Of a stretch of DNA of 10,632 nt, positions 2,169 through 7,583 are shown in pieces. Position 1 is the stretch's first letter. Each line of letters opens with the position of its first letter. Under the pieces are notes generated by a model, which worked only from the letters and a program-made list of their open reading frames with translations, did no database searches and was not told where the DNA came from. The position numbers were made by a program, and so were the translations under genes. This DNA comes from an uncultured Clostridia bacterium (GTDB lineage Bacteria; Bacillota; Clostridia; Oscillospirales; Ruminococcaceae): the NCBI GenBank assembly GCA_945933905.1, contig CAMEQX010000023.1:1-10632 (forward strand), given 5' to 3'.

Positions 2169-3437
2169 ATGTTGAAGATAGGCGACAGCGTTGCTCTGGA
2201 GCTTGGCGGCTCGGCGAAAATTCTGAGCGTTCTCGGCTCGGGCGGTCAAGGCACGGTTTATAAAGCGGAATTCGGCGGGAAGGAGTACGCGCTCAAAATG
2301 TACTTCGCGAACAAGCTTCGCAGTCCCGAGATTTTCCGCGAGAATTTGAGCCGTCTCACCGAGGACAAAATCGACGACGCGTTCGTAATGCCGCTGTATC
2401 TCACCGAGAAAATCGACGGGAGCTTCGGTTTTCTGATGGAGCTTGTTCCCGAGGAATACAAGCCGTTTTCCGATGTGCTGAACGCGCGCGTGAAGCTGTC
2501 GGGGCTGTATTCCGTGGTGAATTCCGCGATTAAGATAACGTCGGCTTTCCGTGCGCTCCACAACAGCGGAAAGAGTTATCAGGACTTGAATGACGGCGGT
2601 TTTTTCATTCGCGCAACAGACGGAGATGTTCTTATCTGCGACTGCGACAACATCGCGCCCTACGGCGAACACCTCGGAATTGCGGGAAAACCCGGCTATA
2701 TGGCGCCCGAGATTGTCCGCGGGGAGAAGGCGCCCGACAAGTTCACGGACAGATATTCGCTCGCGGTGGTGCTGTTCAGGCTGCTGCTGCGCGGCGACCC
2801 GCTCGAGGGCAGCAAAGTGCTGAAAAGCGTTTGTCTGACGGAGGGAGCCGAGCGCCGTCATTACGGTTTCGAGCCGCTTTTCGTCTATGACCCCGACGAC
2901 GACAGCAACCGTCCCGTGCGCGGCGTACACAACAATATCATCAAATTCTGGCAGATTATGCCCGATTACATAAGAGAAGCGTTTGAATTTTCGTTCACCG
3001 TGGGCTTAAACGAGCCGCAGAAGCGACTTATCGAGAAGCAATGGCTGGATTTGCTCAAACGGCTGCGCGGCGACATCACGGCTTGCCCTTGCGGGATACA
3101 GAACTTCCTGCCCGCGATGCAAACGGACGAGGACGGAAAGCTGATTTGCCCGTGCGGGACGCACTACGCGAAGCCGCTTTCGCTTGTCGGCGAGAAGAGC
3201 AGAGTGCTGCTGTTTGACGGAGCGCGGGTGTTTGACGAGGATGTGAGGGTGCGCGCGGAGGTTGTCCGCAACAAGAAAAATCCGGCGCTCTGGGGGCTGA
3301 AAAACCTCACCGAGAGCGACTGGAGCTGCGTTCTCCCGAACGGCACGGAGAAAACCGTTTCTTCGGGCAGCGCCGCGCCGATTTTCACGGGAACGAGTAT
3401 TTCTGTCGGCGAGGAAAAATACACGATTGAGGACTAA
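2169..3437 (+). CDS. Divergent protein kinase with zinc ribbon and beta-rich C-terminal domain (TerY-P type)
   Basis: This 422-residue soluble protein has a protein-kinase fold at about residues 15-300. Visible are the glycine-rich loop GSGGQG (23-28), the ATP-anchoring lysine K43 in ALK, and the activation-segment end MAPEIV (178-183). The catalytic loop is unusual. HRD is replaced by Y137-Q-D139, the Asn that normally helps bind Mg2+ is Gly144, and the DFG position reads D-C-D (158-160) followed by N161. Residues 306-330 hold a CPCG...CPCG pair that should bind zinc. The last 85 residues, with WGLKNL and a Gly-rich strand pattern, look like a small FHA-like or beta-sandwich domain. YQD-type kinases of this layout sit beside TerY-C proteins in TerY-P modules, which fits the gene just upstream. 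AGGTGG at 2156-2161 is seven bases from the ATG. It may phosphorylate a TerY-like partner encoded outside the window; activity is uncertain because of Gly144. Confidence 0.82.
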   Translation: MLKIGDSVALELGGSAKILSVLGSGGQGTVYKAEFGGKEYALKMYFANKLRSPEIFRENLSRLTEDKIDDAFVMPLYLTEKIDGSFGFLMELVPEEYKPFSDVLNARVKLSGLYSVVNSAIKITSAFRALHNSGKSYQDLNDGGFFIRATDGDVLICDCDNIAPYGEHLGIAGKPGYMAPEIVRGEKAPDKFTDRYSLAVVLFRLLLRGDPLEGSKVLKSVCLTEGAERRHYGFEPLFVYDPDDDSNRPVRGVHNNIIKFWQIMPDYIREAFEFSFTVGLNEPQKRLIEKQWLDLLKRLRGDITACPCGIQNFLPAMQTDEDGKLICPCGTHYAKPLSLVGEKSRVLLFDGARVFDEDVRVRAEVVRNKKNPALWGLKNLTESDWSCVLPNGTEKTVSSGSAAPIFTGTSISVGEEKYTIED

Positions 3438-4497: not shown

Positions 4498-4548
4498 TTT
4501 CGCTTTACAAAGCTATTTTCAGACTGTCGTTCTATTTCAATCTATTTT

Positions 4549-4578
4549 AGGGGCAGGGTTTTCTGCCCCTATGTTTTT
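4549..4578 (+). terminator. Rho-independent terminator of HPr
   Basis: AGGGGCAG (4549-4556) and CTGCCCCT (4563-4570) form a perfect 8-bp stem around a 6-base loop, followed by ATG and TTTTT. It closes the single-gene HPr transcript before the M23 promoter region. Confidence 0.9.
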
Positions 4579-4606
4579 GTGAAAATTGAATGAAAATCGC
4601 GAAAAA

Positions 4607-4656
4607 GTTACAAAATAGTTACAAAAAGGTTGCAAAACAGTTACAAATCTGTTATA
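4607..4656. promoter_or_regulatory. Five 11-bp-spaced direct repeats, WalR/OmpR-family binding array
   Basis: GTTACA, GTTACA, GTTGCA, GTTACA and GTTATA begin at 4607, 4618, 4629, 4640 and 4651: five copies with an exact 11-base period (6 bases plus N5). The reverse complement, TGTAAC-N5-TGTAAC, fits the WalR (YycF) consensus TGTWAH-N5-TGTWAH. The controlled gene is a cell-wall peptidase, the typical WalR target. Copies 3 and 5, the two that deviate, coincide with the -35 and -10. Another OmpR-family regulator such as PhoP also binds 11-bp-spaced repeats and cannot be excluded. Confidence 0.6.
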
Positions 4657-4658
4657 AT
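4630..4658 (+). promoter_or_regulatory. Extended -10 sigma-A promoter of the M23 peptidase gene
   Basis: A perfect TATAAT at 4653-4658 is preceded by TGT, giving an extended -10. A weak -35, TTGCAA (4630-4635, four of six matches), lies 17 bases upstream. Transcription should begin near 4665, giving a leader of about 80 bases. A poor -35 with a good extended -10 suits an activator-dependent promoter and agrees with the surrounding repeat array. Confidence 0.75.
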
Positions 4659-4731
4659 AGAAAATGCGGAAAATCCGTTTGTTAAAGATAAACATAATTG
4701 AGGAAAATATTATCCCGATACACTTGCCAAA

Positions 4732-4738
4732 AAGGAGG
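4732..4738 (+). promoter_or_regulatory. Ribosome binding site fixing the TTG start of the M23 gene
   Basis: AAGGAGG lies seven bases before the TTG at 4746. It excludes the upstream in-frame TTG at 4698, which has no ribosome binding site and whose frame reads through this motif. TGCC (4725-4728) and GGCA (4737-4740) can pair across it, a weak potential block to ribosome binding. Confidence 0.8.
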
Positions 4739-4745
4739 CAGAAGG

Positions 4746-6521
4746 TTGAGTTTACCCGAGGATAATTTGGATAAAAACGCCGAGAAATCGACTGAAAATA
4801 AAACGTGGCTTCAAGCATTCGGCAACAAGCTGTATAATTTCATCTCCGCTGCGGGAGAAATGCTTTTTTTGGCGCTGATGAAGCTTGTGACGCTGTTTGT
4901 TCACGGAATTTTGTACATAATCGCGGCAATTCTTCGCTGCTTTGACCGCGTGAAAAAGCATCTCGTGAGATTTTTCAAAAAGGTGTGGAACGTAATCTCC
5001 GCGCCGTTTGTGCGCTATATCAAGGCTTTTAAGGTGGGAAGCGCGGAAATCTCCCGAAAAAAGCGCGAGGACGGCTCAAAAGCAAGCTTCGGCGCTTTTA
5101 TGCGGTTTCTCGGAAGAGCAATTTTCGGAAAACGCGGACTTGCGGTTACGCTGTTTAACTACGCGCTGCCCGTGGTTTCCTGCTTTTTCCTGTTCAATAT
5201 CATCACCTATGCGACAAGCCAGACCTACGCGCTGAAGCTCACGGTTAACGGGAATTTTGTCGGATATGTTGACGATGAAACCGTTTATACCGACGCGGAG
5301 CAAATGCTTCAGGAGCGTATAAACTACACGGGCGCTTCCACGGACGTCGTGACGTTTACGCACACGTTTGAGGTGGATATGGTGGGCTATGGCTCGACGC
5401 TTTCAACCTATCAGGTTACCGACCGTATGCTTCAGCTGTTGGACAAGCAGATTGAAAAGGGCTATGGCGTTTATATCGGCGACAGCTATTACGGCACGCT
5501 CTATGACAACAAGAAAACCGAGGAGGCTCTCGAGGGACTTCTCAACAACTATCGCACGGATAACCCCAAGGAAAGCGTCGTTTTTGAGAAGGATATCGAG
5601 TTTGTGCCGGGACTTTATCTGTCCGAGAGCTTTGTCAACGAGAATTCGCTGATTTCCCTGCTCACATCAAACAGGACGGTTGCCGCGTATTATACGGCGG
5701 TTGAGGGCGACTCGCCTTCCACAATCGTTTCAAAGACAGGGCTTGATTATGACGAGCTTGCGCGGCTTAACCCCGGTTTCAGCGACAAGACAAAGATTTT
5801 TGTCGGCGATAAGTTTATGATAACGCAGGACGAGCCTTATCTCAACGTCATCATCACGCGCGAGGAGCATTATAACGAGATTATCCCCTACGATACGGAG
5901 TACATCACCACAAACAAGCGCTTTAAGGGAGATAATCTGATTACCGTACCCGGTGTGAACGGCGACAGCGCGGTTGTCGCGAATGTTTCTTATATCAACG
6001 GAGTTGAGGTCGCAAGAAGCGTGCTTTCGAGAGTTACCCTCAAAGCGCCCGTTACCCGCATTATCGCAAAGGGTACGATGGACCGCCCGACAATCTCCGC
6101 AAACGCCACAACAACCGAGGCGGGCAAGTTTATCTGGCCGCTCCCCGCGGGCACGGGCAAAATCGGCTATGGCTGGGGAGAATACGCCGGTCACACGGGG
6201 CAGGATATTCTGGCGCCCTACGGAACGCCGATTTTCGCGGTTGACAGCGGCGTTGTCACAACGATTTACTACGAGGAGAACGCAAATTATCTCACTTGCA
6301 ACGGCGGCTACGGAAACCTTGTCGTTGTCACGCACGATAACGGCTTGCAGACCTATTATGCGCATTGCAGCGCGATTGCCGATATATACGTCGGGCAGCG
6401 CGTTACCGCGGGTGAAAACCTTGCGTTTGTCGGGTCAACGGGACGTTCTTACGGAAATCATCTGCACATCGAGGTTCATAAAAACGGTCACAAGGTCAAT
6501 CCCTCGCCTTACCTGTTTTAA
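4746..6521 (+). CDS. Membrane-anchored LysM-G5-M23 cell-wall endopeptidase
   Basis: The 591-residue product starts at TTG 4746. A basic cytoplasmic N-terminus contains a hydrophobic stretch at about 38-64 and a clear transmembrane segment at about 131-155, so the rest should face the wall. Outside come two short modules with a V-N/I-G-x-x-x-G-x-v/l pattern (about 165 and 243). A LysM domain at about 313-360 (AYYTAVEGDSPSTIVSKTG) binds peptidoglycan. A G5 domain follows at about 364-444, ending IIAKGT. The M23/LytM peptidase occupies about 460-587. Its zinc ligands are present: H483 and D487 in HTGQD and H574 in HLH, with H540 (YYAHC) and H572 completing the catalytic set. It should cleave peptidoglycan cross-bridges or stem peptides for growth or separation, and nothing suggests it is inactive. 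The promoter lies in a WalR-like repeat array, which fits this role. The stop is followed by a terminator. Confidence 0.92.
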   Translation: MSLPEDNLDKNAEKSTENKTWLQAFGNKLYNFISAAGEMLFLALMKLVTLFVHGILYIIAAILRCFDRVKKHLVRFFKKVWNVISAPFVRYIKAFKVGSAEISRKKREDGSKASFGAFMRFLGRAIFGKRGLAVTLFNYALPVVSCFFLFNIITYATSQTYALKLTVNGNFVGYVDDETVYTDAEQMLQERINYTGASTDVVTFTHTFEVDMVGYGSTLSTYQVTDRMLQLLDKQIEKGYGVYIGDSYYGTLYDNKKTEEALEGLLNNYRTDNPKESVVFEKDIEFVPGLYLSESFVNENSLISLLTSNRTVAAYYTAVEGDSPSTIVSKTGLDYDELARLNPGFSDKTKIFVGDKFMITQDEPYLNVIITREEHYNEIIPYDTEYITTNKRFKGDNLITVPGVNGDSAVVANVSYINGVEVARSVLSRVTLKAPVTRIIAKGTMDRPTISANATTTEAGKFIWPLPAGTGKIGYGWGEYAGHTGQDILAPYGTPIFAVDSGVVTTIYYEENANYLTCNGGYGNLVVVTHDNGLQTYYAHCSAIADIYVGQRVTAGENLAFVGSTGRSYGNHLHIEVHKNGHKVNPSPYLF

Positions 6522-6605: not shown

Positions 6606-7583
6606 TTAGTTCTGATAACAAATCTGCTCCTTTTCAAGCATCGGATAAACCACAAGCTCTGCGGAATTGAGGTTTTCGCGGTTCATATCAACCGCGCAGA
6701 TTTGATGATTGTTGTAGGTCGTGTAGTGGTAAATTCCGCGAGAGCAGTCGGCGCAGCTTGTGTAAATCGTGATTTCGTGCTTTCCATCAGCAAGCTCGCA
6801 GCAGCCTCTTTGCTGGTCAACCGCACCGAGAATGTGGAAAAACTGCGAGAGGGCGTTGTCGGGATTGTCGAGCTTTGAGTTGTTCAGCACGAACGCCGCG
6901 CGCACAAAACGCGACTCCGAGGACAAGTCCCCGGGAAGCCCGATTGCGCCCATTCCCCTGCTGTAAAGCGAAATCGGCAAGTCCGCGCAGAAGCGGTTTT
7001 GCGGCTCCTTCGGCGAGAGGTTGACGTAATTCGCGAGATTTGTGAGCTGCTGCGGGAAGGGCGGGTTGTTCGCCATAACGCCGACAGGGTTGTCATAAAC
7101 GAAAAATCCGCTCTCGACGCTCTCCACAACAATCGTCCCGCTTTTGTCCGCGATTATCCAGTGCAGCCGCGCAATCGGCATTTGCTCCGAGAAAGCTTCG
7201 TTTGTAAGGTTGATTTTCGTGAGAAGCTCGCGCGCTTCGTCAAGATTTGCGCATTTCCCGAGCAAATACGGGATAAACTCGAATGTGGCGAGGTTAATTT
7301 TCTCCGAGGCATTGTCGCGATAAACCGCGTTTCCGACGAAATTCAGCCCTGCCATCGCCAGCCCCTTTTCGTTCACCGCGTCATAAATCAGCGGAAATCC
7401 CCCCGCAACGTGCGCTGTTCCGACAAGCGCATAGTGATTGCTCATCGAGTCTGCGCGGCGGAAATTAAGCGGGAAATTCCGCGGCATAACCACGATGCTC
7501 TCGCCGTAGGAAAACTCATAATCCAGCGTTCTCCCGAAAAAAAGTCTGTCCTTTTGCGCAAGATATGCGGCGGCTGTACACAT
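6606..7583 (-). CDS. bsh: Bile salt hydrolase / choloylglycine hydrolase (Ntn hydrolase)
   Basis: This 325-residue enzyme has the full length of the cholylglycine hydrolase family (C59). The second residue is the nucleophilic Cys2, exposed after removal of Met1. Other family active-site positions agree by number: R18 and D21 in GRTLD, N172/N173 in MANNP, and R228 in SRFVR; GLN at 79-81 is in the substrate pocket. It should hydrolyse the amide bond of glycine- or taurine-conjugated bile acids in the cytoplasm, since no signal peptide is seen. The loop before GLPGD reads YSRG (207-210), a pattern that I recall being linked to taurine-conjugate preference. Penicillin V acylase is the alternative, but the GLPGDLSSESRFVRA region is more BSH-like. 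AGGAGG at 7591-7596 is seven bases before the ATG. The gene lies 54 bases downstream of the EAL gene, behind a terminator-like hairpin, with no room for a separate promoter between them. Confidence 0.88.
   Translation of the reverse strand: MCTAAAYLAQKDRLFFGRTLDYEFSYGESIVVMPRNFPLNFRRADSMSNHYALVGTAHVAGGFPLIYDAVNEKGLAMAGLNFVGNAVYRDNASEKINLATFEFIPYLLGKCANLDEARELLTKINLTNEAFSEQMPIARLHWIIADKSGTIVVESVESGFFVYDNPVGVMANNPPFPQQLTNLANYVNLSPKEPQNRFCADLPISLYSRGMGAIGLPGDLSSESRFVRAAFVLNNSKLDNPDNALSQFFHILGAVDQQRGCCELADGKHEITIYTSCADCSRGIYHYTTYNNHQICAVDMNRENLNSAELVVYPMLEKEQICYQN

Follow-up and report, generated by a model that had tools for sequence, protein, structure and literature searches.

A putative two-module operator of the WalR/MtrA kind around the promoter of an M23 cell-wall hydrolase gene in uncultured Clostridia

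The promoter of a cell-wall hydrolase gene in an uncultured Ruminococcaceae bacterium is threaded by five near-identical hexamers, which raises the question of whether they form an operator and, if so, which copies belong to it and what kind of protein would read it. The window analyzed here is a whole contig of 10,632 nucleotides, from an assembly of 1.84 Mb that is 73.5% complete. An earlier note had described five GTTACA-type hexamers at an exact 11-bp period, and we found them precisely where claimed, all on the forward strand: copy 1 (GTTACA, 4607..4612) and copy 2 (GTTACA, 4618..4623), an upstream pair that ends 6 bp before the -35 element; copy 3 (GTTGCA, 4629..4634), overlapping the -35 element TTGCAA (4630..4635); copy 4 (GTTACA, 4640..4645), inside the 17-bp spacer; and copy 5 (GTTATA, 4651..4656), overlapping the -10 element TATAAT (4653..4658). 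The two imperfect copies thus coincide with the core elements and copies 1, 2, and 4 are identical, as had been stated; the core itself is conserved in relatives. Jointly, the five copies carry two mismatches to GTTACA, whereas among 400 dinucleotide-shuffled versions of the window none had fewer than nine, and shuffling of the intergenic stretch 4501-4745, with any word allowed at any period from 8 to 14, gave four mismatches in 2 of 1855 cases and never fewer. Both tests fall far short of the observed match, and a chance origin of the array was rejected.

The gene 3' of the array (4746..6521, forward strand, with a probable TTG start at 4746) encodes a LysM-G5-M23 cell-wall hydrolase according to domain searches, in agreement with the original M23 assignment. 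By eye, a ribosome-binding site AAGGAGG lies at 4732..4738 and a GGGGCAG/CTGCCCC stem followed by a T-run, which probably terminates the HPr gene before it, at 4550..4577, both on the forward strand. Relatives of the M23 gene occur at eight named loci, all in assemblies of uncultured Clostridia or Oscillospiraceae. Three genomes carry a tandem duplication of the gene (G019:C35, G042:C44, and G049:C110). Elsewhere in the window, 6606-7583 encodes a choloylglycine-hydrolase family protein on the minus strand and 2169-3437 a protein-kinase-domain protein.

To separate operator from core promoter, we compared the array with ftsZ promoters of the genus (25 loci, 24 with a readable core). GTTGCA stands at the -35 element in 22 of the 24 readable ftsZ promoters and GTTATA at the -10 element in 12, both counted by eye, and none has RTTACA at the spacer place of copy 4 or 11-13 bp before the -35 element. 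The 22 bp between copies 3 and 5 follow automatically from a 17-bp spacer between a GTTGCA-type -35 element and a GTTATAAT-type -10 element, and copy 3 is not an independent sign of an operator. Since ftsZ carries the look-alikes of copies 3 and 5 without GTTACA, the independent evidence for an operator consists of copies 1, 2, and 4: all five hexamers are present, but what had been called a five-copy array is really an upstream module of two copies together with a half-site in the spacer. ftsZ itself, the second BLAST match in the window's own genome, was dropped from the site set, its orthologues keeping only the -35/-10 look-alikes; own-genome matches with one mismatch at C4, C132, and C230 were set aside by eye as chance.

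The expectation that the repeats recur upstream of orthologous M23 genes holds in much of the genus. Among 45 M23 promoters inspected from 43 genus genomes, 30 have a readable core; of these, 15 carry the pair together with a spacer RTTACA, six, G018 among them, the pair only, three, including G014, the spacer copy only, and six neither, placing the upstream pair in 21 of 30. RTTACA occupies the exact spacer place, +10 from the -35 element, in 18 of the 30 M23 promoters against 0 of 24 for ftsZ (Fisher p 1e-6, kinship ignored). The orthologous half-sites vary among GTTACA, ATTACA, and GTAACA, i.e., TGTWAY when read as the reverse complements TGTAAC, TGTAAT, and TGTTAC; G043, one of the six pair-only promoters, has GTAACA in its spacer. 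Two results count against a two-module operator, namely the six readable promoters with neither module and the 11 genus genomes in which an orthologue is present and the array is absent along with any recognizable core. These 11 genomes, with G049b, make up the 12 promoters that lack a recognizable core, and in several of the 11 the M23 gene visibly adjoins the HPr gene; three further promoters are unreadable, including that of G041, placed there by reclassification. In eight genomes (G003, G004, G008, G017, G043, G044, G046, and G050), copies 2 and 3 are spaced by 10 rather than 11 bp, and this 1-bp shift makes the pair and the core-embedded site separable modules.

On comparative sequence grounds, we lean toward reading 4607-4656 as a two-module operator for an OmpR/PhoB-family regulator (of the WalR/MtrA/RegX3 kind) built around a sigma-A-type promoter, in which the pair would activate and the spacer copy would limit transcription. 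A tandem dimer of the regulator would bind copies 1-2 beside the -35 element and activate, while copy 4 would serve as a weaker site in core-promoter register, helped at most weakly by the -35/-10 look-alikes; once occupied, it would compete with RNA polymerase and so limit expression. The alternative that survives best is plain activation, in which the upstream pair alone matters, copies 3 and 5 simply belong to the core promoter, and copy 4 is a remnant, or an extension of the activator site, with no repressing role. The 6 of 30 readable promoters with a pair and no spacer RTTACA fit this simpler scheme, as does the finding that, among 57 arrays scored for geometry, the spacer copy was seen by eye in none except M23 promoters; we nevertheless hold it doubtful, given that the spacer copy keeps its exact place in 18 promoters, three of which have no pair.

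To find a candidate for the regulator of the proposed two-module operator, we collected top matches to the YycF family, 20 proteins in 12 genomes, all but one of which sort into three groups, with 9, 7, and 3 members. The DNA-binding domain of group 2 is closest to those of RegX3, VicR, WalR, and YycF, that of group 1 to SaeR, and that of group 3 is intermediate. In a sample of 46 chosen genomes, 23 with and 23 without the pair, all 23 genomes with the pair have group 2 at E 1e-60, as do 12 of the 23 without (p 2e-4, kinship ignored); the corresponding figures for group 3 are 17/23 and 10/23 (p 0.07, kinship ignored). The own-genome copy of group 2 lies at a contig end and comprises its first 124 residues. 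The genes in this region run lipoprotein-like, regulator, kinase, DUF1385-like, prmC-like, and recA-like (names by eye), and C. difficile walRK is likewise preceded by a lipoprotein gene, according to the accessible part of that report (PMC9210968). The kinase has a HAMP-HisKA-HATPase architecture with no PAS domain at E 0.001; its best NCBIfam match is the WalK model, matched in the catalytic part only and below the cut-off (235 of 725 bits). The curated YycF cut-off is passed in 0 of 12 genomes, group 2 scoring 217 of 340 bits, and group 2 also lies below the curated MtrA cut-off at 202 of 300. No array was seen in the group 2 operon in the two stretches inspected. Because group 2 and its kinase miss the curated cut-offs and no array was seen in the operon stretches inspected, the system is better said to work like WalR/MtrA than to be WalR, and the earlier naming of WalR is not borne out. 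The best candidate is a predicted WalR/RegX3/MtrA-like OmpR-family protein, and we infer that it most likely comes from the group 2 response regulator/kinase pair behind the lipoprotein-like gene (as at G016:C5).

A different binder, either OmpR-family group 3 or group 1 or a PhoP-type protein, is in our judgment unlikely. OmpR-family proteins are numerous in each genome, and one array (G058) adjoins a group 1 regulator gene and another (G020) an ungrouped response regulator; with these two and the array-free group 2 stretches, autoregulation was abandoned as a guide to the regulator. Group 3, however, is missing at E 1e-60 from six genomes with at least three pairs (G185, G148, G149, G037, G030, and G070), and the nearest relative of the group 1 DNA-binding domain is SaeR. 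PhoP boxes of B. subtilis are tandem TTHACA hexamers at 11 bp, several per promoter, and the arrays with their RTTACA words resemble them in all these respects except the first base: orthologous half-sites begin with G or A, where the PhoP box has T, so that TTHACA repeats are not matched. No phosphate gene was noticed beside the arrays among the annotated neighbors, a subset of all neighbors.

The preferred operator reading also draws on the distribution of its pair. GTTACA-N5-GTTACA is counted 244 times in the 43 genus genomes, with overlapping pairs counted more than once, against 7 for a reversed control pattern, and occurs in 42 of the 43; order-wide, 88 of 147 genomes have a match. When any gap from 0 to 24 is admitted, the word pair shows no overall enrichment (69 matches versus 82 for the control in eight genomes); among those 69, period 11 accounts for 28, period 10 for ten, and period 21 for nine. 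That the repeats are phased A-tracts, bending DNA or serving as an UP element with no regulator of their own, is highly improbable: in 136 of 144 unique pairs the first GTTACA is followed by A, and the next two positions are mostly A/T, but orthologues keep RTTACA while their linkers vary, and arrays are found in both orientations and recur at the same genes across the genus.

The geometry of the 57 arrays was scored by one fixed rule. Forward array-to--35 gaps favor one face of the helix (21 arrays with promoter score >=11, p 8e-6), also when the 3D-type target is kept once (16 arrays, p 1e-4), and in the reverse orientation the phasing is not significant (11 arrays, p 0.24); hand-picked gaps had earlier given p 5e-4 forward and p 0.056 reverse. 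In 6 of the 57, the pair lies 45 bp before the TTGACA -35 element of a DUF348-G5-3D-like gene, a label that rests on Pfam for the own-genome protein and on a similar gene start for the others. Another 13 of 57 are TGTAAC-oriented and end 9-10 bp before an opposite-strand -35, often TTGAAT (e.g., L135, L144, L146, L155, and L184), with up to six copies (L144); several are followed by lipoprotein-like or MBOAT genes. Of 16 array-adjoining genes searched with Pfam, 9 gave no match, several of these being lipoprotein-like by eye; the rest were MBOAT, two ECF-type sigma factors, a GH5 cellulase, a class-V aminotransferase, a solute-binding protein, and a gene with a weak amidase match. By neighborhood, the motif does stand at other envelope genes, including those for the G5-3D protein, lipoprotein-like proteins, and MBOAT; with respect to wall hydrolases, the targets of a WalR-type regulator, the M23 and G5-3D genes adjoin it. 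In three order-mates from family f4 (G027, G068, and G083), several GTTACA-N5-GTTACA pairs lie on opposite strands facing one another, a different layout of the motif, with a start-to-start distance of 21 bp in G027 and G083 (e.g., G027:C6 55766/55787).

We next set the site beside known systems. The reverse complement of copies 1-2 matches TGTWAH-N5-TGTWAH, as originally proposed, and direct TGTWAH-type hexamers with a 5-bp gap and a wall hydrolase target are shared with WalR (YycF/VicR). A further likeness is the tie between position and sign of control: as far as the available text on S. aureus WalR extends, sites upstream of the -35 element are associated with activation, and sites lying between the elements or past them with repression (PMC10746227). 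Unlike WalR, the genus has arrays of up to six copies, a pair and a spacer site within one promoter, and a candidate regulator under the curated WalR cut-off. The view that an array running through the core promoter is unusual beside the single WalR pair holds in part: a core-overlapping site has a precedent in the VicR site at S. mutans gtfC, which overlaps both core elements in the portion of the study available (PMC4168254), but the combination of pair and spacer site at one promoter differs. MtrA of actinomycetes recognizes two short direct repeats with five bases between, and its bldD site overlaps the -10 element, again within the accessible text (PMC5650626); both features are likenesses, while the candidate regulator falls under the MtrA cut-off. 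The S. coelicolor MtrA consensus, KTRACC-N5-GTKACN, is matched in part only, in that the reverse complement of our pair often reads GTAACC (G precedes the first GTTACA in 104 of 144 unique pairs) and the second half has one mismatch. Regulator and site are of a known kind, their placement is unusual, and the operator arrangement is real and conserved; it was not found described in the literature searched, which omits most subscription papers. On the comparative evidence, wall hydrolases would be under control of the WalR/MtrA type in a large uncultured gut lineage as well.

Outside the genus, nine of 12 other family genomes have an M23 relative at E 1e-60, and we read the promoters of these nine by eye; that of G183 is unreadable. 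G190, G135, and G176 have an 11-bp half-site series upstream of the -35 element plus TGTTAC or TGTAAT in the spacer. In G112, G085, and G146, GTTACA-N5-GTTACA lies one base past the -10 element, and in G099 and G156 a TGTWAH-N5-TGTWAH pair lies ~10 bases past it; these five genomes, from two other genera, have the pair in what would be a repressor position. By the S. aureus WalR position rule, the gene would be activated, or subject to mixed control, in some lineages and repressed in others, and these differences in placement suggest that its control has been rewired in evolution. As a tentative extension, which we would not press, an activating pair and a repressing half-site sharing the 11-bp/17-bp register could make hydrolase expression peak at intermediate regulator activity, and the site may have moved from upstream to spacer to after the -10 element, flipping the sign of control more than once across the family. 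Nature thus offers a series of promoters of one gene in which the site stands upstream, within the spacer, at both of these places, or past the -10 element, and with it the question of how position sets the sign of an OmpR-family regulator becomes directly testable.

A cysteine-desulfurase-like gene is adjoined in many genomes by an array, a promoter, and a short transcript-like stretch that constitutes a small-RNA candidate, located in the own genome at about 1477-1572 of L016 (C154) and in other genomes at L158, L178, L061, L138, L145, L149, L153, and L165. Rfam at gathering score gave no small-RNA match in seven loci, and no match in the window or in four own-genome loci; at L193, a weak match to LhrC (29 of 110 bits, E 0.89) serves only as a lead. 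In the candidate, CCTCC lies within an open 5' region, and the loop of its terminator hairpin contains CCCC; across eight aligned copies CCTCC and TTCCCC are invariant, and 5 of 12 stem pairs have changed on both sides.
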